Positions 7,463 to 33,676 of a DNA stretch of 37,490 nucleotides are shown one piece after another. Both the position numbers and the translations under genes were made by a program. A model generated the notes under the pieces. It was given only the letters and a program-made list of their open reading frames with translations. It did no database searches and was not told the origin of the DNA. The stretch lies in contig JBFLZD010000036.1 of assembly GCA_040756435.1 (NCBI GenBank), forward strand, positions 1-37,490, given 5' to 3'. The DNA comes from Spirochaetota bacterium. Its GTDB lineage: Bacteria; Spirochaetota; UBA4802; UB4802. The first letter of the stretch is position 1, and every line of letters begins with the position of its first letter.

Positions 7463-8290
7463 ATGGATGAAAAAATCATAACAAAGTTACTTAAAGAGGT
7501 CATTTCGGAGGAATTAAATATCATCAGAGCTGAGATGGCAACTAAAAAAGACTTGAAAGTGTTTGCAACAAAAGATGATGTCAATACCATTAGAGCGGAG
7601 ATGGCAACAAAAGAAGATTTAAATGCATTTGCAACAAAGGAAGATCTAAATGTTATTAAAGCTCAAATGGCAACAAAGGAAGATTTAAAAGTATTTGCAA
7701 CGAAAGATGATATAAATACCATCAGAGCGGAGATGGCAACAAAAGCAGATTTAAATGTATTTGCAACAAAGGATGATGTTAATGCCATAAGGGAGGAGAT
7801 GGCAACAAAAGATGATCTGAAAAATTTTGCAACAAAGGAAGATTTAAATGTTATTAAAGCCCAAATGGCAACAAAGGAAGACTTAAAAGTATTTGCAACA
7901 AAAGATGATCTGAAAAATTTTACAACAAAGGAAGATTTAAATGTTATTAAAGCCCAAATGACAACCAAAGAAGACTTAAATGCTTTTGCAACAAAAGATG
8001 ATTTGAAACGTTTTACCACTAAAGAAGATTTTCTTGAGTTTGAAGCGCGGTTAAGTTCAACGGTGGAAAGGATACGTGAAGGAATACGTCTTTCACTCTT
8101 TGAGATTGAAAAAGAACTGACCGAAATAAAAGGCAAGCTTCGTTTTTACGACTTTGATTATTTTTCACGACAGAATGATGCTCTGTTAAAATTGCTTAAA
8201 GACCTTTATGAAGAAAAAACATTTATTGTTGCCAGGATGAAAGATCATGAAAATAGGTTAGAAGCAATAGAATATAAACTTGGGAGTTGA
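7463..8290 (+). CDS. hendecad-repeat coiled-coil protein (ATKEDL repeats)
   Basis: A 275-residue, highly charged protein. Residues about 23-190 are built from 22-residue units (two 11-residue hendecads) of the form ATKEDLxxFATKDDxNxIxAxM, at least five in a row plus partial units. The C-terminal 85 residues (from SSTVERIREGIRLSLFEIEK) are non-repetitive helix. Hendecad periodicity favours a straight or right-handed coiled coil. No signal peptide or membrane segment is seen. Similar tandem coiled-coil proteins occur in many bacteria and recall Bdr-type repeat proteins of spirochaetes, but I cannot assign a function. AAGAGG lies upstream of the ATG. At DNA level the units are 66-bp direct repeats (7530-8020), so copy-number change is likely. 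Confidence 0.85.
   Translation: MDEKIITKLLKEVISEELNIIRAEMATKKDLKVFATKDDVNTIRAEMATKEDLNAFATKEDLNVIKAQMATKEDLKVFATKDDINTIRAEMATKADLNVFATKDDVNAIREEMATKDDLKNFATKEDLNVIKAQMATKEDLKVFATKDDLKNFTTKEDLNVIKAQMTTKEDLNAFATKDDLKRFTTKEDFLEFEARLSSTVERIREGIRLSLFEIEKELTEIKGKLRFYDFDYFSRQNDALLKLLKDLYEEKTFIVARMKDHENRLEAIEYKLGS
7530..8020 (+). repeat. 66-bp in-frame tandem repeats
   Basis: Direct repeats inside the coiled-coil gene, each marked by GCAACAAAAGAT/GCAACAAAGGAA-type 33-bp half units. Several neighbouring units are nearly identical, which indicates recent duplication by recombination or slippage. Confidence 0.85.
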
Positions 8291-22466: not shown

Positions 22467-22853
22467 ATGAAACACATAAATAAATACTTGCCACGTTTTA
22501 TTAAAACAAGCTATGTTGTTATATTCTTTTTTACTATTGCAGTATTTTTGCAGTGCTCCAGTTACATAACAAAAGAAGAAAAACTTACATTAAAAAATTA
22601 TGAAGGAGAATATATTCTATTGCAGGATGCAGTGCGTAATGATATTAAAATTCTTAAAGGTGAACGGGTAAGAATTAAGATTACAGCAACAGATGATTAT
22701 ATAAAGGTATACGCCATGCCTGCTAAGATTGATATAGTTAAGGGTGAGTGGATTTTAATTCTCTATTTGTTTCCGGATGATTTTGAAAAAGAAAAATTTG
22801 ATATAAAGGTTTTTGAGGACAGGCTTTACCAGATGGCAAAGCCTGTCAAATAG
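22467..22853 (+). CDS. small putative lipoprotein
   Basis: A 128-residue protein with a basic N-terminus, a hydrophobic segment (VVIFFFTIAVFLQC) and a lipobox-like FLQC with Cys at about residue 30. It is probably a lipoprotein with a relaxed, spirochaete-style lipobox. The mature part is short and beta-rich (YEGEYILLQDAV, VRIKITATDDYIKVYAMPA), possibly a small barrel or sandwich. I recognise no family. AAGGAG lies 6 bases before the ATG. Its stop is only 3 bp from the stop of the convergent Trx-TrxR gene. Confidence 0.7.
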   Translation: MKHINKYLPRFIKTSYVVIFFFTIAVFLQCSSYITKEEKLTLKNYEGEYILLQDAVRNDIKILKGERVRIKITATDDYIKVYAMPAKIDIVKGEWILILYLFPDDFEKEKFDIKVFEDRLYQMAKPVK

Positions 22854-22856
22854 TCA

Positions 22857-24149
22857 TTAAACCGCAACAGTTGCTTCTTCCAATTCTCTGACTGCAGTAA
22901 TTGCAGCAATAGTGCCATCAGACACTGCTGTTGTTATTTGCCTGTATGGTTTATACCGTATATCGCCAGCTGCAAACACATCAGGCAATGATGTGTGCAT
23001 GAATTCATCAGTGATAATATATCCATTGTGGTTTTGTAAGTCTTCATTAACCATATTGGGCTTCATGCCAGCAAATATGAATACGCCATCACAAGTAATG
23101 TATGACCTGTTTCCGGTTTTAAGGTTTTCAACCTCAACTGTCATACTGCCATCATCATTTTTAATGAATGCACGCGGTTCGTGAGAAAACATAAAAGAAA
23201 TCTTATCGCTGGCAAATGCTTTTTCCTGCGCTTCCCTGTTTGCCTGCAGCCTGTCAAACTGGTGAACAATAGTTATATGACGTGCAAATTTTGCAATAAA
23301 TAGCGATTCCTCAATAGCAGAATTTCCGCCTCCTATTACTACCACATGCTTGTCCTGATAATATTTAGCATCACAGGTTGCACAGTATGATATGCCTTTC
23401 CCTTTATATTCATATTCACCAGGGACATTGAGTTCTCTGTATGAACATCCTGAAGCTATAATTATCTTTTTAGCATGAATAGTCTCTATGCCATCAACGA
23501 TGATATATTTTTTTATTAAATTTATTTCTGTGACATCAACAGAAACACGGAACTGGCAACCTGCTTCTTTTGCCTGTTCACTCATATAGTGCATAAGCAT
23601 AAACCCTTCAACTGGTTTTGCAAAACCGGGGTAGTTTGAAACCATATGAGTTGTTTGGACCTGACCACCAGGAAGCTGGGTATCAACAAGAATTGTTTTA
23701 AGTTTGGCCTGAGCAGCATAAATGCCAGCGGTTAACCCCGCAGGGCCAGCACCTATAACAAGGATATCAGTATACGTCGTTATAGGTTGTATGGCCGATA
23801 GTAACTGAGAAAAACGCTCTTGTGGTAATAAAAACTTAATATTACCAAGAAGCTCAGAGCGTTTTATGCTGCCTGATAAGCGAGTGCCTATCTCCCTGCC
23901 ATTGTGATAAAACAATACCGTAGGTGATGATGTTACACCTAATGATTCAGCTAAAGCGCGATTTTCCTGCCGGAATATCTTTATAAATGTTATATCATCA
24001 CCAAAGATTTCGCTCAATGGTTCAAATTTTGCAGCCAGCGCTTCGCAGGGTGGACATTCCGTAGAATAGAAATCAACGATAACATTACCACTGTGCAGTA
24101 CTTCCTTTTCAAATTGTGATGCATCAATATACTTAATTTTTTCACTCAT
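22857..24149 (-). CDS. thioredoxin-thioredoxin reductase fusion (Trx domain first)
   Basis: A 430-residue single-chain thiol-redox system. Residues 1-110 form a thioredoxin fold with a CPPC active site (Cys32, Cys35) and the cis-Pro at 76 (TSSPT). Residues 125-430 form a complete FAD/NADPH thioredoxin reductase: GAGPAG (133-138), CATC redox pair (Cys256, Cys259), GGGNSAIEE for NADPH, and the C-terminal FAD loop VFAAGDIRYK. The order is opposite to the mycobacterial TrxR-Trx fusion. AAAGGAG precedes the ATG. It is the last gene of the peptide/radical-SAM operon, 14 bp after the maturase, so I infer it keeps peptide or enzyme cysteines reduced. Confidence 0.93.
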   Translation of the reverse strand: MSEKIKYIDASQFEKEVLHSGNVIVDFYSTECPPCEALAAKFEPLSEIFGDDITFIKIFRQENRALAESLGVTSSPTVLFYHNGREIGTRLSGSIKRSELLGNIKFLLPQERFSQLLSAIQPITTYTDILVIGAGPAGLTAGIYAAQAKLKTILVDTQLPGGQVQTTHMVSNYPGFAKPVEGFMLMHYMSEQAKEAGCQFRVSVDVTEINLIKKYIIVDGIETIHAKKIIIASGCSYRELNVPGEYEYKGKGISYCATCDAKYYQDKHVVVIGGGNSAIEESLFIAKFARHITIVHQFDRLQANREAQEKAFASDKISFMFSHEPRAFIKNDDGSMTVEVENLKTGNRSYITCDGVFIFAGMKPNMVNEDLQNHNGYIITDEFMHTSLPDVFAAGDIRYKPYRQITTAVSDGTIAAITAVRELEEATVAV

Positions 24150-24163
24150 GATGTACTCCTTTA

Positions 24164-25540
24164 TTATTGATGTGCCTTGCCGCTTTTGGCGGTGTGGTTA
24201 TATACTTCGTTGGTATTACACGATTTTACATGGTAATTCCCTATTTCTTTTTCAAAATATAATGATATCCCCATTGAAAGCAATGTATCAACTGGCCTAC
24301 AATCAGGATGCAGTATATTGCCGTGATTGTTTTTTGCAACAGCGGCACAACCACCGCCACACAGCAAGCTCAATGAACATTGCTGACATTGTGGTATGGA
24401 TGTAACATCACGTCTTTCCCATTCTTCAATTGCAATAGTATTCAATGACACAGTGGGGTAATAGGTTCCAACTTCTTCGCCATTTTTACCCACCATTGCA
24501 GTACAGGGATATATTTTCCCTGTATAATCAAACGCCCACTCAGTTTTACAACCAGGGCATGCATCAAAGAGGGGATTGGGCATAGCACCTTGCTCAAATA
24601 AAAATTTGCTTATTGAATAAGCAGGCTTATGGAATTGCAGAATGTATGGGTGCTGTATAATGAGTTCATATATTTTTTCATACAATGATGCTCTGTTATA
24701 AAGTTTTGCATTATCGGCCTGGCAATAGTGAAGTTCATAATTTCGTCCAATTTGAGTTTTAAACAATGGGTGGTTTATCCAGCCTTTATCAATGGCAAAC
24801 TGTGCTAAGTTTGGAAGGTCATTGATATTTTCTGCATCAACGACAACACGTAAGTTTATTGGTATATTATGTGCCAGTGCACTATCTATGCCGGTAACTA
24901 TCGCATCAAATGTTGGTGTTTTGGTTTTTGTGAATCTACGTTTATTATGTACATTTTGTGTGCCATCTAGTGTTACCTGGATTTCACGGATGGCTGCTTT
25001 TTTTAAAATGTCAATATATGAACTCAGTGTGTATCCGTTGGTAACTATCGCCAAACTTAATGAATGCTGATTTGCTTTTTCAATAAAATAAGAAATTATT
25101 TCCCGTGCATGAGGTGAATCAAGAAGAGGCTCACCACCAAAGAGGGTAATGTACTTTGGTTTTGTTATGTGCGCGGTAATATATGAAAAAAATGCATCAA
25201 TCACTTCAGGTGTAACTGTACCTTTGTTGTCATAGCCTGATTGATAACAGTAGGAGCAAGCAAAATTGCACGCATACCACGGAACAAAGAATATTTGCAC
25301 CTCAGAGTTGTCGCGAGTATCAAGAAATTCTAAATATGCTTTACGGTATAATATCTTTTCTTCCTGTTCATCAAGCACATACCCCTTGTGTTTCAATATG
25401 CTTATATCAAAGGTTCCATCAGCAATTGCTTTCATCTCATGCTGTGATATGATGTCAGCTTGCATGCTCAGGGGATTCATCATAAAGTAATTGTTTGAAT
25501 CATGTAATTTTCTAATTATAGTATACTGTGATAATTTCAT
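24164..25540 (-). CDS. radical SAM/SPASM protein, likely peptide maturase
   Basis: A 458-residue iron-sulfur enzyme. The radical SAM cluster motif CNFACSYC gives Cys91, Cys95 and Cys98, and the glycine-rich TLFGGEPLLD follows. The C-terminal SPASM region has many Cys (CPGCKTEW, PCTAM, CQQCSLSLLCGGGC, DCRP) for auxiliary clusters. The N-terminal YFMMNPLSMQADIISQHE, before the barrel, is typical of enzymes that modify ribosomal peptides (sactipeptide and related maturases). I chose the ATG at 25540; the upstream open extension overlaps the 30-residue peptide gene in another frame and looks non-coding. It is preceded by that peptide gene and a hairpin. Confidence 0.9.
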   Translation of the reverse strand: MKLSQYTIIRKLHDSNNYFMMNPLSMQADIISQHEMKAIADGTFDISILKHKGYVLDEQEEKILYRKAYLEFLDTRDNSEVQIFFVPWYACNFACSYCYQSGYDNKGTVTPEVIDAFFSYITAHITKPKYITLFGGEPLLDSPHAREIISYFIEKANQHSLSLAIVTNGYTLSSYIDILKKAAIREIQVTLDGTQNVHNKRRFTKTKTPTFDAIVTGIDSALAHNIPINLRVVVDAENINDLPNLAQFAIDKGWINHPLFKTQIGRNYELHYCQADNAKLYNRASLYEKIYELIIQHPYILQFHKPAYSISKFLFEQGAMPNPLFDACPGCKTEWAFDYTGKIYPCTAMVGKNGEEVGTYYPTVSLNTIAIEEWERRDVTSIPQCQQCSLSLLCGGGCAAVAKNNHGNILHPDCRPVDTLLSMGISLYFEKEIGNYHVKSCNTNEVYNHTAKSGKAHQ

Positions 25541-25564
25541 TGGATGTAACCTGTAAAAGTTTTT

Positions 25565-25594
25565 ACCACCTGCACGATTAAACGTACAGGTGGT
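25565..25594 (-). terminator. hairpin between peptide gene and maturase (attenuator-like)
   Basis: Two 12-base arms (ACCACCTGCACG and CGTACAGGTGGT, one G-U type mismatch) around a 6-base loop form a strong stem. On the minus strand it begins 8 bases after the peptide stop and is followed by an A run and then five Ts. Such hairpins between a precursor and its enzymes usually let more precursor mRNA accumulate than enzyme mRNA. That role here is inferred. Confidence 0.65.
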
Positions 25595-25601
25595 GTTTGA
25601 T

Positions 25602-25694
25602 TTAGTCGTGGCAGCCTGCAACAATAGTTGAAATTTTTGCGCAGCACTGTGCAACGTGAGTACTGTTGTCTTTTGGTGCAACAAGTGATTTCAT
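25602..25694 (-). CDS. 30-residue Cys-containing peptide, candidate RiPP precursor
   Basis: A 30-codon gene. AAAGAGGTG stands before the ATG with good spacing, better than the site of the maturase gene. The peptide begins MKSLVAPKDNST and ends HVAQCCAKISTIVAGCHD, with Cys at 17, 18 and 28. The N-terminal half is cysteine-free and leader-like; the C-terminal half is a small-residue core. It sits 31 bp after the ArsM-like gene and directly before the radical SAM/SPASM maturase, the usual precursor place. No known precursor family is recognised. Thioether (sactionine-type) crosslinks at the Cys residues are one plausible fate. I am fairly sure it is translated, less sure of the product. Confidence 0.7.
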   Translation of the reverse strand: MKSLVAPKDNSTHVAQCCAKISTIVAGCHD

Positions 25695-25725
25695 TTAACA
25701 CCTCTTTATTATGGTATAACGTTTA

Positions 25726-26367
25726 TTATGGTTTAGTTATTTTATAGGTAAAACTTGCAACATAAATTGCACCCTTGGGGTACGGTTCACTTTCTTCCAG
25801 TATTTCAATGTCAGAGAATCCCGCCTTTGCTATAATTGCTAAGTACTCGTCTTTAGGAATTGAACCTGCCCAGCACTCAGCAACTGCATCAGGATCATTT
25901 TTGTATTCTAAAGGAACCTGTCCAATAGAGTAAATATCACTTATAATGCATCTTCCACCTGGTTTTAAGATGCGATAAATTTCATTGAATACATTTTGTT
26001 TGTTGTTTACATGGTTTATTGTACAATTAGAAATGATAACATCACAGTTATTATTGGGAAGTGGCAGTGTTTCAAGGTCTGATTGTATAAATGCAACATT
26101 AGTATATCCAAATTTGTTCGATAGTTCCTTTGATTTAGCTATCATGCCACTGGAGATATCAATGCCATAAACAAAACCATTGCTACCCACTGCATCAGCC
26201 ATACGCAGAACATCAGTGCCGCGTCCACTGCCTAAATCAACACATACTTCACCTGGTTTGGGCTTTGCATGATTAATTGCTCCTCCACAGGACAGGCAAC
26301 AGGAGCTTTGAGCTAAATTGCTATAACGCACATTTATTGCTTCAAGAACATGTGATGTATTTACCAT
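25726..26367 (-). CDS. ArsM-like SAM-dependent methyltransferase
   Basis: A 213-residue class I methyltransferase. SAM-binding motif I is CVDLGSGRGTDVL (42-54), followed by GIDISS and the ILKPGGRCIISDI strand. It closely follows arsenite methyltransferases (ArsM/AS3MT): Cys115 in IISNCTINHV and Cys165 in AECWAGSIPKDEYL occupy the places of the As(III)-binding cysteines, and there is an N-terminal CC..C cluster (Cys23, Cys24, Cys27). It may therefore methylate arsenic, or use the same thiol pocket on a peptide or other metalloid. It is the first gene of the operon with the peptide, radical SAM enzyme and Trx-TrxR fusion. Confidence 0.85.
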   Translation of the reverse strand: MVNTSHVLEAINVRYSNLAQSSCCLSCGGAINHAKPKPGEVCVDLGSGRGTDVLRMADAVGSNGFVYGIDISSGMIAKSKELSNKFGYTNVAFIQSDLETLPLPNNNCDVIISNCTINHVNNKQNVFNEIYRILKPGGRCIISDIYSIGQVPLEYKNDPDAVAECWAGSIPKDEYLAIIAKAGFSDIEILEESEPYPKGAIYVASFTYKITKP

Positions 26368-26867
26368 AGGATATATTCTCTTGATACATGAAATATTATT
26401 ATTTTATAAAATACTAAAATAATATGTATGCGTCAAAGAAAATTATGCATTTTTTTAAATTTTTTTATAGTGAGGATTAGTGATAAAAATGCACCTCGAT
26501 TACATTGTGGCTCTGGATAACAGTTTTGTCAAAGTGTCATTGCAAGCAAAGCAAGGCAATCTCAAGAAGCAGGGGTGTTTTCTATGATAAAATTTCTGAT
26601 TGTATTGGAACTCACTATGACAGTTTTACCATAGGGTAATGCTTCTTATCAATTAAACGAAATAAAAATAAACTAATAAATCGTAAAAATTGCTTCGTCA
26701 TCCTGATAAAATTGGGATTCCTTGTTGAGGGTTGAAGAATACTATAAATTTTTATTTTATTATTACTTTTTTGCCTTTATTTTGATGCACAGGCATAAAA
26801 AAATATTGAACAAGATTTTGTTACGCCTCTTATAGGTATGGGGTAACTATTTCACTTATTATTAATA
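26368..26867. other. gene-free stretch with degenerate repeat
   Basis: 500 bases between the chemotaxis receptor stop and the operon promoter. Positions 26532-26565 contain GTCATTGCAAGCAAAGC and GGCAATCTC, a decayed half of the palindromic element seen at 5824 and 21740; a possible opposite arm (ATTGCTTCGTCAT) is near 26690. No gene was seen. Confidence 0.55.
26408..26436 (-). promoter_or_regulatory. promoter of the methyltransferase-peptide-radical SAM operon
   Basis: On the minus strand, TTGACG (26436-26431), 17 bases, TATTTT (26413-26408). It lies about 40 bp before the methyltransferase ATG, in a sharply AT-rich stretch. No operator-like dyad was identified. Confidence 0.55.
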
Positions 26868-28823: not shown

Positions 28824-30074
28824 TTATCCTTTTTTTATTTTTTTTCTGTCAAGCGGTATTCCTTCCCATGCTGCTTCTAAAACCATGATGTAATCATTGT
28901 AATCAAGGTCTTCGGGGTTATAGAATTGTGCTGGATCGCTCATTGCTGTTTTTGCAATGTCAGGGAGCTTTTCTTTGGGTATCATCTGCTTGCCACTTCT
29001 GTCATATACCTCTTTCAGGAAACGCGGGTGCTTGCCATCGGTGGCATCATGCAGATCCTGAATAAGCTTTCGAATATATTCTACAGTTTTAAGTGGCCTC
29101 TCTTTTTTTTGTGTTTTGTTATATACTTCTTCACCAGCCAGTGGATATAGTAGCTCGCCAATGTACTGTGAACGTTTATGCATGTTGTACTCCAATCCAT
29201 ACGGCAGCAGTATATTCATGCATACACCATGTGGTACACCACACACACCCCCAATAGCATGTCCAATGTTGTGTACAAGACCAACCATGGAATTGGAAAA
29301 AGCCATGCCAGCTAAGTTTGAAGCCAGCGCCAGTGCTAACCTGCCATCGAGATCAGAAGGTTTTTTAACCACATTGACCAGATTTTGTGCAATAAGCTGT
29401 ATTGCTGCAAGCGCTGTTGTGTCACTTAATGGATTTTTTGCCAGGCAGAAGTAAGCTTCTACAGCATGGGTGAGGGCATCCATTCCGGTAAAAGCTGTTA
29501 TGGTTGGTGGCAACGTTTTGGTCATTCGGGAGTCAATAATAGCAATGTCAGGTAGCAGAAATAAAGATCCAAAGGCCATTTTGATGTTCTTTTCATGGTT
29601 AGCAATAACAGCAACTGAAGTCACTTCAGAACCTGTTCCTGCCGTTGTTGGTACTGCTACAAATGGGCGGAGTTTGCGTTTTACATTACCATAACCCACA
29701 AATTGCAATAAATCAGTTGCATTTTCGGATACAAGAATATTTGCCCCTTTTGCAGTATCCAGAACTGAGCCACCGCCTACGGCAATAATTGAATCACATT
29801 TTTTTGCCCTGTAAATTTTTGCCACTTCATTGACTACTTTTACATCTGAATCTGCTGGTACATTATCAAAGAGTGCAGCAGCCTTGAGTTTTGATTTTTG
29901 CATTGCTGCCTGGACAATTTTTATAAGTCCGGCCTGCTCAACACCTTTATCAGTAATGATCATTGGCCTTTGTGCATTGATTGCTTTCAGACTCTGGGGT
30001 ATCTGCTCTAAGGCCTTATGGCCAACTATTGTTTTAACACTGTTACAAAATTCATAATATGCTGGTAATTGCAT
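28824..30074 (-). CDS. iron-containing alcohol dehydrogenase
   Basis: A 416-residue group III (Fe-ADH) enzyme interconverting alcohols and aldehydes with NAD(P)H. The nucleotide motif AVGGGSVLDTAKG is intact. The metal ligands are present: Asp and His in TGMDALTHAVEAY, His in VHNIGHAIGG and His in GVPHGVCMN. I chose the ATG at 30074, preceded by GAGGTG, over the in-frame ATG at 30092. It is the last gene of the AOR operon, where it can turn AOR-made aldehydes into alcohols or the reverse. Confidence 0.93.
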   Translation of the reverse strand: MQLPAYYEFCNSVKTIVGHKALEQIPQSLKAINAQRPMIITDKGVEQAGLIKIVQAAMQKSKLKAAALFDNVPADSDVKVVNEVAKIYRAKKCDSIIAVGGGSVLDTAKGANILVSENATDLLQFVGYGNVKRKLRPFVAVPTTAGTGSEVTSVAVIANHEKNIKMAFGSLFLLPDIAIIDSRMTKTLPPTITAFTGMDALTHAVEAYFCLAKNPLSDTTALAAIQLIAQNLVNVVKKPSDLDGRLALALASNLAGMAFSNSMVGLVHNIGHAIGGVCGVPHGVCMNILLPYGLEYNMHKRSQYIGELLYPLAGEEVYNKTQKKERPLKTVEYIRKLIQDLHDATDGKHPRFLKEVYDRSGKQMIPKEKLPDIAKTAMSDPAQFYNPEDLDYNDYIMVLEAAWEGIPLDRKKIKKG

Positions 30075-30095
30075 GATTGCACCTCGTTTCAATTA

Positions 30096-30638
30096 TTAGA
30101 ATGTAAATGCACGAACATAGATAAGTATTCTGCCAAAATGTTTTCTGAAGGGATTCATCTGTGACCATTTGGGATATCGTTTAACGGCTAACTTTGCAAT
30201 AATTTTTGGCAGTAAATAAACTTCTACTATATTCAATATCCTTACCAATGCACAGGCGTCAGGCAAATCCCCATCTACAACCAGCCTATTGCGAGCAGTT
30301 GAGATTGCAGTTCCTTCCTGGAATGTAAAAAGAAGCATTGCAGCCTCAACACTTTTTATGGTCATGGTTAATGTTGGTTTGTAGCCTTTATCCTTCCAGC
30401 CTAAGTACTTTACCTTGCCATCTTTAGTTTTGCCAACATACATTGCAGGTCCATTTGGCCATATCCACATCTTCAATAAAAAATTATCTTTTAGTTTTGC
30501 AAATTCTTCTTTTACTTCACTGTCAACCTTTGCTGCAGCTTGAATGGCCCGGCCAACCACCCACAGCATAACAGCAATATATATTCGTTTAATCAATTTC
30601 TTCTTTGGCTTAATTTCAGGATATTGTAATGCGTTCAT
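30096..30638 (-). CDS. SCP2-like protein of unknown role
   Basis: A 180-residue protein. The segment from about residue 45 to 150 (KMWIWPNGPAMYVGKTKDG, LTMTIKSVEAAMLLFTFQEG, RLVVDGDLPDACALVRIL) has the strand-helix pattern of SCP2 sterol-carrier domains, which bind lipids or acyl-CoA. The C-terminal part (PKIIAKLAVKRYP) is basic. It lies between the two Fe-ADH-like genes of the AOR operon, so it may deliver a hydrophobic aldehyde or acyl ester. Family assignment is from pattern only and should be checked by profile search. Confidence 0.55.
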   Translation of the reverse strand: MNALQYPEIKPKKKLIKRIYIAVMLWVVGRAIQAAAKVDSEVKEEFAKLKDNFLLKMWIWPNGPAMYVGKTKDGKVKYLGWKDKGYKPTLTMTIKSVEAAMLLFTFQEGTAISTARNRLVVDGDLPDACALVRILNIVEVYLLPKIIAKLAVKRYPKWSQMNPFRKHFGRILIYVRAFTF

Positions 30639-30658
30639 AATGTAACTCCTTTTTAAAA

Positions 30659-31801
30659 TTATTTACCTTCAAAGGATTTTTCTAGAAGTGCCATATATTC
30701 AGTTTCTTTGTGCTGTTTATTCTTTACAGCAGCTAATCTGGCATATTCTTTCAGTTTGTAGTGGGGAATATTCAACCCTTTCAATGTTGAAGGTGCATAG
30801 TTACCTGTTGCATCTATACACTTAATGAGATAGTCATAAGCGACTTTCTGGCGGTCCTTTTCAGGAGTCTTTGCATATGTATCAATGCCAGCAAGGGCAA
30901 GTAGTAATTCAGGGCGTATGCCACCTTTAGCATGCAGTTTTGCAGCCAGGCTATATCTAAGAAGAATTCCCATCACTTTACCAGGTTGAAGGTTGGTATC
31001 AAGAACTATCGCCTGCGCTAATGTATGTACTATTCCCTGTGGTGCATTTGAAAATGCAGTATCCGCACAGGCTGCCGCATTAACTATAGCAACACTTCCG
31101 TCCTTGTTACATGGCCTTTTAATTGTCTTTGGAAGGTATTGATAAATAAATTGAAGTGCAGTATGTGCATACGCATCATTGATAGGATTAGGTGCAGCTA
31201 TGCCACATGCTTCAATTGCATGTGCCAGTGATGTAAGCGCACAGTTCGCCACCTCCTGTGAAGTAGCATGGCGCGTTATGCGTGAATCAATAACAATAAC
31301 ATCAGGATACAGAAAATCGGATTGTTTTTCAAAACGCTCGTAATATGCAATAGCGGCCATTTCCCCGCCTTCGCAATCTGCAGTGGGTGCGCAAATTAAA
31401 GGTTTAAGTGGCGATGAAATGGTAAGATCAGTACATTTCAAAATATCAGTTTTAAGTGAAACAGCCATATTGACTGCTTTTGCAATATGTGCTATCCCGC
31501 CTGAACCAAGTGCAATGATTGAATCACAACCCCTATCTCTGTATAGTTTCGATAGTTCATTGATTATTGTTACACTGGGGTAGTTAGGGGCATTGGTAAA
31601 AAGAGCGCCTATAGTAATGTTGCTATCGTATAAAGCTTTCGTTAATGTTTTTGCTAACCCTTTTTTTGCCCATCGGGCTGATGTGATGACAAGGGGCTTG
31701 CGGGCATTCAGTGATTCTAATTCAAATGGGATATGTTCCAGCGCTTTAAGCCCAGAACAAATTTTAGGATGACTTAAAAATGTAAAGTTGTATGGAATCA
31801 T
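30659..31801 (-). CDS. degenerate Fe-ADH paralogue (likely inactive)
   Basis: A 380-residue protein clearly of the Fe-ADH fold by its order of motifs, but with the active site taken apart. The nucleotide loop reads ALGSGGIAHIAKA in place of AVGGGSVLDTAKG. At the metal site LTSLAHAIEA has Thr where the ligand Asp should be, VHTLAQAIV has Gln for His, and LQPGKVMG has Pro for the PHG His. Only one of four ligands is left. It has no stop or frameshift and lies in the AOR operon next to the intact enzyme. It may be a structural or regulatory subunit. Confidence 0.85.
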   Translation of the reverse strand: MIPYNFTFLSHPKICSGLKALEHIPFELESLNARKPLVITSARWAKKGLAKTLTKALYDSNITIGALFTNAPNYPSVTIINELSKLYRDRGCDSIIALGSGGIAHIAKAVNMAVSLKTDILKCTDLTISSPLKPLICAPTADCEGGEMAAIAYYERFEKQSDFLYPDVIVIDSRITRHATSQEVANCALTSLAHAIEACGIAAPNPINDAYAHTALQFIYQYLPKTIKRPCNKDGSVAIVNAAACADTAFSNAPQGIVHTLAQAIVLDTNLQPGKVMGILLRYSLAAKLHAKGGIRPELLLALAGIDTYAKTPEKDRQKVAYDYLIKCIDATGNYAPSTLKGLNIPHYKLKEYARLAAVKNKQHKETEYMALLEKSFEGK

Positions 31802-31813
31802 GGTGCCACCTCA

Positions 31814-33676
31814 TTATTTTTTTTCAATTTTTAATCGTTTTAATGTGCTGTCTTTAGGAATGCCATTTTCATCAAAACCACGTGCTTTATAGTAACTATC
31901 TACCAGTTCTTCCAATGGTACGGTACGCTGCTGTGGGTCACAGTGCCTGCCCTCGGTTAAAAATCGTTGTGGGAGAGTATCGTCTTTTCGTGATATACCT
32001 TCACGGGTATTCATATAGCGCTCAAGAACATGTATCCTTCTTCCTGCTTTAATCCACTTGAACATCCCCATGCGCTTGCCAGTAATTCCCGACCACATTT
32101 CGGGCCACAGGCTTACATCCATGAATTTTGTAGCAATTGGGTTGAGATAGGTTACCATTGGATTTAATAGAAATGTTGGCGTGTATTTTACCACAAAAGG
32201 TTCCAGTTCTACAGCAAAAGCAGTAAACTGACATATATGCATTGAATTAATGGCACAGGTGACATCTTCCAAAAATGCAATCATGGAACCTTTACCTTTG
32301 AGTGAAAAGGGATCATGCATATTCAGATACACTTCAACTGCAAAGCTTGCAGTGGAAAGATGGCACGCACCACGGTTTGCAACAGCATAGCTTAATGCCT
32401 GCCCCCAAGCACCACGGGGATCGTAGGCTGCCATTTCAAGGCCTTTAACTTGAATTGCAAAATCAGCTCCACCATATTTTTGCGATAGTTTTCGGGTACC
32501 ATTGGCTAAATCATTACCAAACCCTCTTCTATAAGCAATGTCCGTGATAGTTTTTGCTACATTATCGGGTGATCCAAATTTGAGATCGGTTTTAATTAAT
32601 CCTTTTTCGGTGGCCTCCATTGCCCAGGCAATTGTGACTGCAGTGGATATTGTATCAAGGCCATATTTTGTACAAAGTTCGTTAAATTCGCTGACTGCGA
32701 CAGGATCAAAGATCTCTAAATTGGAGCCAAAAGTACCAATAGTTTCATATTCAGGAATCTGACGCATTTGGCCATTTATAGTGCCTTTGTGACCGCAGAG
32801 AATGGCACAGGGCTTGCAGGTTGAGAATTTGGTATCAAAGCGTTCAGCCATTTCTTCGCCAGAAATTTTGTGTGCTTCGCCGTGTGAACCACCCGTGAAA
32901 TTGCGAACCGGTAACAACCCACCTGCATTATTCAGATTGACATTTGCATTGGTACCAAACTGCCGGTATGATACGGATGTAATGGGATTGCGGTTGATAA
33001 ATTTAAGTGTTTTTTTGCGGGCTTTATCAAACTTTTTAGGATTTTTTGGTACTATCTTGAATTCATTTCCTTTAGCAACTATCGCTTTTACATTTTTTGA
33101 ACCCAGTACTGCACCCATGCCACAGCGCCCTAAAAATCTGTGGCCGGAACAGATATTAGCATACAGTACCTTGTTTTCACCTGCTTGCCCAATGACCAGT
33201 GCACCGCTGCCTTCCTTGTCAAGGGCTTTTTGAACGGTCTGAGTATCTTTACCCCATAATTTTTTTGCATCCTTGAATTCAACTCCCTTTGAACTGATAA
33301 CTAAATACACCGGTGATTTAGCTTTGCCCTTTACAATGAGTCCATCCCAACCGGAGGTTTTCAATGCCATACCAAATGGTCCGCCACAGGAACCGGTTCC
33401 CATAAGTCCTGTCAATGGTGATTTGGTAACTGCTGCAAAGCGACCTGCACAGGGTGCGCCAGTGCCCAGATATACTCCCGTCATCACGATGAATTCATTT
33501 TCCTCAGAGAAAGGATCAATGCCTGCCGGCACTCTGTCATAAAAAAGTTTTAAGCCCAATCCCTTGCCGCCCAAATAGAGTTCCAGGTCCTTTTCAGAGA
33601 TGGGAATCTCACGGTAGGATTGTGTGGTTAAATCAACTTCAATGACCTTGTTACTTGTTCCAGTGATTTCCTGCAT
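31814..33676 (-). CDS. aldehyde:ferredoxin oxidoreductase family protein
   Basis: A 620-residue tungsten/molybdenum pterin enzyme that oxidises aldehydes to acids with ferredoxin (or the reverse). The 4Fe-4S cysteines are seen at 287, 290 and 294 (TCKPCAILC), with the fourth in MHICQF near residue 490. N-terminal pterin-binding parts GGKGLGLKLFYD and GTGSCGGPFGMALKTSGWDG are intact. AAGGAG lies before the ATG. It is the first gene of a minus-strand operon with two Fe-ADH-type proteins and an SCP2-like protein. Together they suggest acid-aldehyde-alcohol conversion. Confidence 0.94.
   Translation of the reverse strand: MQEITGTSNKVIEVDLTTQSYREIPISEKDLELYLGGKGLGLKLFYDRVPAGIDPFSEENEFIVMTGVYLGTGAPCAGRFAAVTKSPLTGLMGTGSCGGPFGMALKTSGWDGLIVKGKAKSPVYLVISSKGVEFKDAKKLWGKDTQTVQKALDKEGSGALVIGQAGENKVLYANICSGHRFLGRCGMGAVLGSKNVKAIVAKGNEFKIVPKNPKKFDKARKKTLKFINRNPITSVSYRQFGTNANVNLNNAGGLLPVRNFTGGSHGEAHKISGEEMAERFDTKFSTCKPCAILCGHKGTINGQMRQIPEYETIGTFGSNLEIFDPVAVSEFNELCTKYGLDTISTAVTIAWAMEATEKGLIKTDLKFGSPDNVAKTITDIAYRRGFGNDLANGTRKLSQKYGGADFAIQVKGLEMAAYDPRGAWGQALSYAVANRGACHLSTASFAVEVYLNMHDPFSLKGKGSMIAFLEDVTCAINSMHICQFTAFAVELEPFVVKYTPTFLLNPMVTYLNPIATKFMDVSLWPEMWSGITGKRMGMFKWIKAGRRIHVLERYMNTREGISRKDDTLPQRFLTEGRHCDPQQRTVPLEELVDSYYKARGFDENGIPKDSTLKRLKIEKK

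Follow-up and report, generated by a model that had tools for sequence, protein, structure and literature searches.

Among the closest described relatives of the system reported here is SCIFF (CteA-CteB, TIGR03974), in which a maturase made of RRE, radical SAM and SPASM domains stands beside a short, strongly conserved and widespread Cys peptide. The best family scores are those of two other groups of maturases, CefB (NF038107) and the PapB ranthipeptide maturases (NF047865), the latter being a family of Cys-peptide maturases. On the side of arsenic, the methyltransferases ArsM/AS3MT (PRK11873; CmArsM) bind As(III) through three Cys, and the arsinothricin (ArsL and ArsM) and arsenosugar (ArsS and ArsM) pathways pair a radical SAM enzyme with ArsM. 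A complete relay from NADPH to a dithiol in one chain is found in fusions of thioredoxin with thioredoxin reductase (Trx-TrxR) and in AhpF-like reductases. Here we analyse a cassette from a Spirochaetota bacterium, lying in a window of 37,490 nucleotides (the whole stretch of DNA studied, contig JBFLZD010000036.1), in which elements resembling all of these are encoded together. Four minus-strand frames follow one another in the order methyltransferase, 30-residue peptide, radical SAM/SPASM enzyme and Trx-TrxR, with gaps of 31, 61 and 14 bp (Table 1), which is the head-to-tail arrangement, small gene included, that the original prediction had read from this DNA. The results point to an undescribed ribosomal peptide acting in thiol and probably arsenic chemistry.

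The reading of the cassette as one for a ribosomally synthesized and post-translationally modified peptide (RiPP), which the original prediction had proposed, is strongly supported by the conserved peptide, the peptide-maturase architecture and the fixed synteny. The core of the peptide, AQCCAKxSxxxxGCHD followed by the stop codon, ends exactly at GCH[DN]-stop in 104 peptides from 104 loci, and its residues A, Q, C, C, K, G, C and H are invariant in all of them while being encoded by differing synonymous codons. The leader, MKSL[VI]KKK, is also conserved, and the linker between leader and core is variable. The peptide is present beside every homologous maturase that could be checked, so the 30-residue frame, whose conservation had been singled out beforehand as decisive, is kept in the family. 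A DNA pattern of the core matched 32 of the 393 genomes of the phylum and its reversed control none of the 393; together with the conservation at codon level, this rules out a chance or spurious small frame. The window peptide matched no NCBIfam or Pfam family, and three relatives gave matches at noise level only. Rfam gave no match, no selenocysteine variants of the core with UGA read through were seen in the loci of the relatives, and among open-licence papers none was found with the core motif and none that joins these enzymes.

The maturase family, taken at E 1e-60, matched 37 of the 393 genomes. Both the pattern and the maturase occur in 31 genomes, with close coordinates, a few hundred bases apart in most; in one (G055) they are 2.3 kb apart and divergent. 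The thirty-second genome with the pattern (G197) carries the reductase, the methyltransferase, the peptide and the start of the SPASM frame at a contig end. As for the six genomes with the maturase only, five carry a peptide gene that departs from the pattern in a codon or residue, and one has a truncated contig.

Among the relatives of the host, the search with the SPASM enzyme gave 12 patchily spread genomes. Wherever the contigs permitted, the methyltransferase came before the SPASM gene, the Trx-TrxR fusion or a remnant of it came after, and the peptide was present, lying between methyltransferase and SPASM gene in all except locus L025, where it is on the opposite strand. A scan of the genomes of 84,980 species with the maturase, which was ranked by similarity to it within one collection and may miss more distant members, gave 80 loci with 51-82% identity in Spirochaetota, Bacteroidota (Paludibacter, Prolixibacteraceae, Cyclobacteriaceae), Ignavibacteria, Margulisbacteria, a delta proteobacterium and a Myxococcota bacterium. 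The peptide was found in 86 of 89 non-redundant loci at the stage before further spirochaete loci were added; of the three genomes with a peptide-less locus, those of L039 and L098 carry the peptide with the methyltransferase at another locus, and the contigs of L067 and G100 are cut. In the full set of 108 non-redundant loci the same four genes recur, which bears out the synteny expected from the original prediction: 87 have the order methyltransferase, peptide, radical SAM enzyme, reductase, eight have the reductase first and then the other three in the same order, and most others are cut by contig ends. Methyltransferase and peptide remain together where the SPASM and Trx-TrxR genes lie elsewhere. 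An exception to the gene set is G075, with a methyltransferase of the cassette type and a reductase remnant, where peptide and SPASM gene were not seen on the short contig. Of 295 genomes sampled from the class to which one Bacteroidota carrier belongs, only 3 have the enzyme, hence the system is wide but patchy. Plasmid records held only remote homologues, below 30% identity. Nearly all carriers are metagenome-assembled genomes, and single-contig genomes (G210, G349) carry the cassette too.

The SPASM enzyme is a new family of known architecture. Using its AlphaFold2 model (mean pLDDT 91), Foldseek ranked the SCIFF thioether maturase CteB first (E 4e-19), and the structural alignment (Z 27.2; root-mean-square deviation 3.7; 393 aligned) extends over residues 4-432, thereby including the N-terminal domain, whose leader-binding role in CteB has been described (PMC8326336). 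From this full-length match, residues 1-78, with the fold beta-beta-beta-alpha-alpha-alpha, are predicted to form a leader-binding, RRE-like domain. The radical SAM motif CxxxCxxC (C91, C95 and C98) and the seven SPASM Cys (C328, C346, C385, C388, C394, C398 and C414) are invariant in 57 diverse members. The family is considered new because the window protein scores far below the cutoff of every named NCBIfam maturase family. The best score, with an end-to-end alignment (1-441), is that of NF038107 with 139 bits against a cutoff of 600, followed by NF047865 with 125 against 340, whereas TIGR03974 gives 85 against 425. The substrates differ as well: the cassette peptide does not have the Cys at every fifth position of the CefB system, its core is without the CX3D pattern of PapB, and it has three Cys whereas SCIFF has six in about 45 residues. 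To our knowledge, SCIFF loci are without ArsM-like methyltransferase and Trx-TrxR partners. Membership in a family with a known protein substrate, which would have spoken against a peptide maturase, was not found; the architecture is that of CteB. That the peptide is the substrate of this enzyme is highly probable, given their tight linkage, the conserved leader, the architecture of the maturase and the conservation at codon level.

Sequence and fold searches with the methyltransferase put ArsM/AS3MT first, occupying ranks 1-13 in Foldseek, and its PRK11873 score was 196 bits, below the cutoff of 263. In the alignment with PDB ArsM, its Cys27, Cys115 and Cys165 correspond to C72, C174 and C224 of CmArsM, which needs all three to methylate As(III) (PMC3877260). 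Every one of 97 cassette methyltransferases keeps these arsenic-ligand Cys, as does every one of a diverse set of 57. The cassette protein differs from ordinary ArsM in being shorter (213 residues), in its tie to a peptide gene and in its separate branch: a tree of 42 cassette methyltransferases and 19 ordinary ArsMs of the same phylum was split on one branch with support 100/99. Since the genome of the window also has a separate ordinary ArsM of 268 residues, the cassette enzyme appears as a specialised sister. That ordinary gene, at L132:3384-4190 (C11:32222-32740), is beside an MFS-type transporter gene and away from the cassette.

The fusion carries the sites ECPPC in the thioredoxin and CATCD in the reductase, and both CxxC are kept in nearly all relatives. 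It differs from other Trx-TrxR fusions and AhpF-like reductases in that its thioredoxin is N-terminal and its gene is locked to the peptide cassette. Considering that thioredoxin reduces the disulfide that AS3MT forms at each turnover (PMC9013690), the cassette would encode a methyltransferase and its complete reductant set together with the peptide. The joining of an ArsM-like enzyme with dedicated thiol redox, which the original prediction could not match to a described system, is real and is conserved across phyla.

How these parts would work together can be proposed in four steps. First, more peptide than enzyme may be made, with the help of the hairpin that follows the peptide gene. Second, the N-terminal domain of the SPASM enzyme would grip the MKSLxKKK leader and the core would be modified, a step that architecture and linkage strongly support; the modification would most likely be a thioether that joins a Cys to a residue close by, so that thiols and the terminal His-Asp remain free as ligands. 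Third, the mature peptide may remain intracellular and serve as thiol carrier or cofactor for a thiophilic metalloid, most likely As(III), and present it to the adjacent ArsM-like enzyme, whose three Cys would bind it for methylation. Fourth, following known ArsM biochemistry, Trx-TrxR would use NADPH to reopen the disulfide of the methyltransferase, and perhaps to reduce the peptide as well. A core that hardly varies and the absence of any recurrent exporter favour a mature peptide that is a fixed intracellular molecule. That the RiPP-type cassette makes a modified thiol peptide partnering a metalloid methyltransferase seems to us an even matter. With its invariant arsenic-ligand Cys and a thioredoxin system of its own, the cassette points first to metalloid chemistry, a guess with roughly equal chances of being right or wrong whose main rival is a metalloid-free thiol cofactor. 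Arsenic itself would be the substrate by inference. The complete picture, in which a tri-Cys peptide modified by a radical SAM enzyme delivers As(III) or a similar metalloid to an ArsM branch of its own and is recharged by a dedicated thioredoxin system, across several phyla, is put forward tentatively, as a possibility somewhat short of even.

Several observations weigh against an arsenic role. A thioether would use up one of the three core thiols. Arsenic genes were near only about 4 of the 108 cassettes, which rules out an arsenic operon context as a general rule, and the recurrent neighbours DUF1847 (24 loci), TlpA/Trx (21), DUF302 (18) and SQR-like oxidoreductases (9) point away from arsenic, towards thiol or sulfur redox. 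An ordinary ArsM is also present in 14 of the 39 cassette genomes, that of the window included, so that plain arsenic methylation needs no cassette. It occurs in 26 of the 354 other genomes, a comparison that we do not lean on since families and habitats differ.

The thiol and sulfur redox neighbours fit better a redox or thiol cofactor peptide that works without metalloid, with the fixed-sequence logic of PQQ or mycofactocin. There the SPASM enzyme would crosslink the core, the methyltransferase would S-methylate a peptide Cys (or methylate another atom) and Trx-TrxR would reduce the finished cofactor. In contrast to bacteriocins, the core hardly varies and no exporter or immunity gene recurs, which agrees with this, as do the adjacency of methyltransferase and peptide when the rest is split and the ability of AS3MT to methylate its own Cys (PMC9013690). 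However, a peptide S-methylase would not need the three arsenic-ligand Cys, all of which are invariant, and no peptidase is conserved in the cassette; we hold this explanation to be possible but doubtful.

An organoarsenic RiPP, with arsenic, methylated or not, covalently fixed on the peptide as an arsenic-bearing natural product, is improbable. Pairs of ArsM and a radical SAM enzyme do make arsinothricin and arsenosugars (PMC8552651), and a tri-Cys core next to ArsM-type Cys would suit such a product. Nevertheless, those pathways have no peptide and use radical SAM enzymes other than SPASM peptide maturases, the kind to which the cassette enzyme belongs, and its 25 best NCBIfam matches include no radical SAM family that forms arsenicals; there is also no recurrent transporter, and ars neighbours are few. 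A secreted antimicrobial or signalling sactipeptide or ranthipeptide, with methyltransferase and Trx-TrxR serving only as protection from stress, would be in line with the thioether-maturase architecture and is nonetheless very improbable: the core is not diversified across phyla, and the analysed neighbourhoods showed no recurrent transporter or exporter, peptidase or immunity gene, which speaks against an antimicrobial. Least probable of all is that the frame encodes an unmodified, zinc-knuckle-like (CC-x9-CH) regulatory or metal-binding peptide while the SPASM enzyme acts on another protein. The CC-x9-C spacing does resemble the BTK zinc motif, at a weak E of 0.04 in one relative, but the peptide, with its conserved leader, is tightly linked to a maturase architecture with a leader-binding domain.

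Table 1. Features of the cassette in the window.
Feature	Position	Strand	Basis
ArsM-like SAM methyltransferase, 213 aa	25726-26367	-	PRK11873 score, PDB ArsM alignment, tree, model
Precursor peptide gene, 30 aa, MKSLVAPKDNSTHVAQCCAKISTIVAGCHD	25602-25694	-	Kept in all relatives that could be checked; codons vary synonymously
Leader MKSLVAPKDNSTHV	25653-25694	-	Family consensus MKSL[VI]KKK and variable linker
Near-invariant 16-residue core AQCCAKISTIVAGCHD (CC-x9-CHD), exact C-terminus	25605-25652	-	104/104 loci end here
Hairpin with 12-bp stem, interval between peptide stop and SPASM gene	25565-25594	-	Folding z -5.3
Radical SAM/SPASM peptide maturase, 458 aa	24164-25540	-	Profile scores, invariant Cys, pLDDT 91, CteB match
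Thioredoxin (N-terminal) fused to NADPH thioredoxin reductase, 430 aa	22857-24149	-	ECPPC and CATCD sites

The start of the SPASM gene was placed at the ATG at 25540, from which the relatives align. A longer frame with a TTG start, reaching 25684 and overlapping the peptide gene, was without support from the relatives. The hairpin downstream of the peptide stop and ahead of the SPASM gene is strong in the window (z -5.3), and its z is below -2 against single-base shuffles in 76 of 103 loci. It is probably a partial terminator or an RNA-processing element. A hairpin after the precursor gene is common where the precursor is needed in excess. The single promoter claimed earlier for the four genes is plausible but gains no support from the promoter-like sites of the region, which are at shuffled level (21 versus 18.1). 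None of the four window proteins reaches the cutoff of any NCBIfam family, and current annotation is therefore generic.

The fullest arsenic context is that of L025, where the cassette abuts an arsR/acr3/arsC group. In this locus the peptide gene is divergent, arsR, acr3, arsC-like and permease genes are around, the in-place Trx-TrxR copy is a thioredoxin-only remnant and there is a second, full fusion. A MarR regulator is a neighbour in 10 loci. In a divergent branch (L108-L110) genes of DUF5714 type are just upstream of the methyltransferase (confirmed with Pfam in L110), and L026, of the same branch, has a similar frame downstream and a DsrE-like gene upstream. A short zinc-ribbon protein with a domain of the IS1595 transposase type is encoded on the opposite strand upstream of the methyltransferase in 11 loci (L093:813-1268 and ten other Bacteroidota loci).

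Elsewhere in the window, a lipoprotein frame convergent to the cassette (22467-22853, plus strand) scored 46.4 bits on Spiro_T2SS_lipo (cutoff 50), a type II secretion-associated lipoprotein, which fits a spirochaete host. At 7463-8290 (plus strand) there is a frame of 275 residues with repeated ATKxDLNVI/ATKEDL units of about 12-13 residues and no Pfam match. The minus strand at 28824-33676 has in a row, as read from the sequence, two iron-type alcohol dehydrogenase-like frames, a small lipid-transfer-like frame and an aldehyde ferredoxin oxidoreductase-like frame.

If the proposal is true, it adds a peptide family whose core is unvaried across phyla and which is, for that reason, probably a cofactor rather than a weapon. 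It would also be the first case found in the open-licence literature of radical SAM peptide chemistry tied to metalloid methylation, with a four-gene set ready for expression. The presentation of arsenic to ArsM would become testable, in cells that may lack glutathione, and the cassette would be a marker for unnamed players in the arsenic cycling of sediments.

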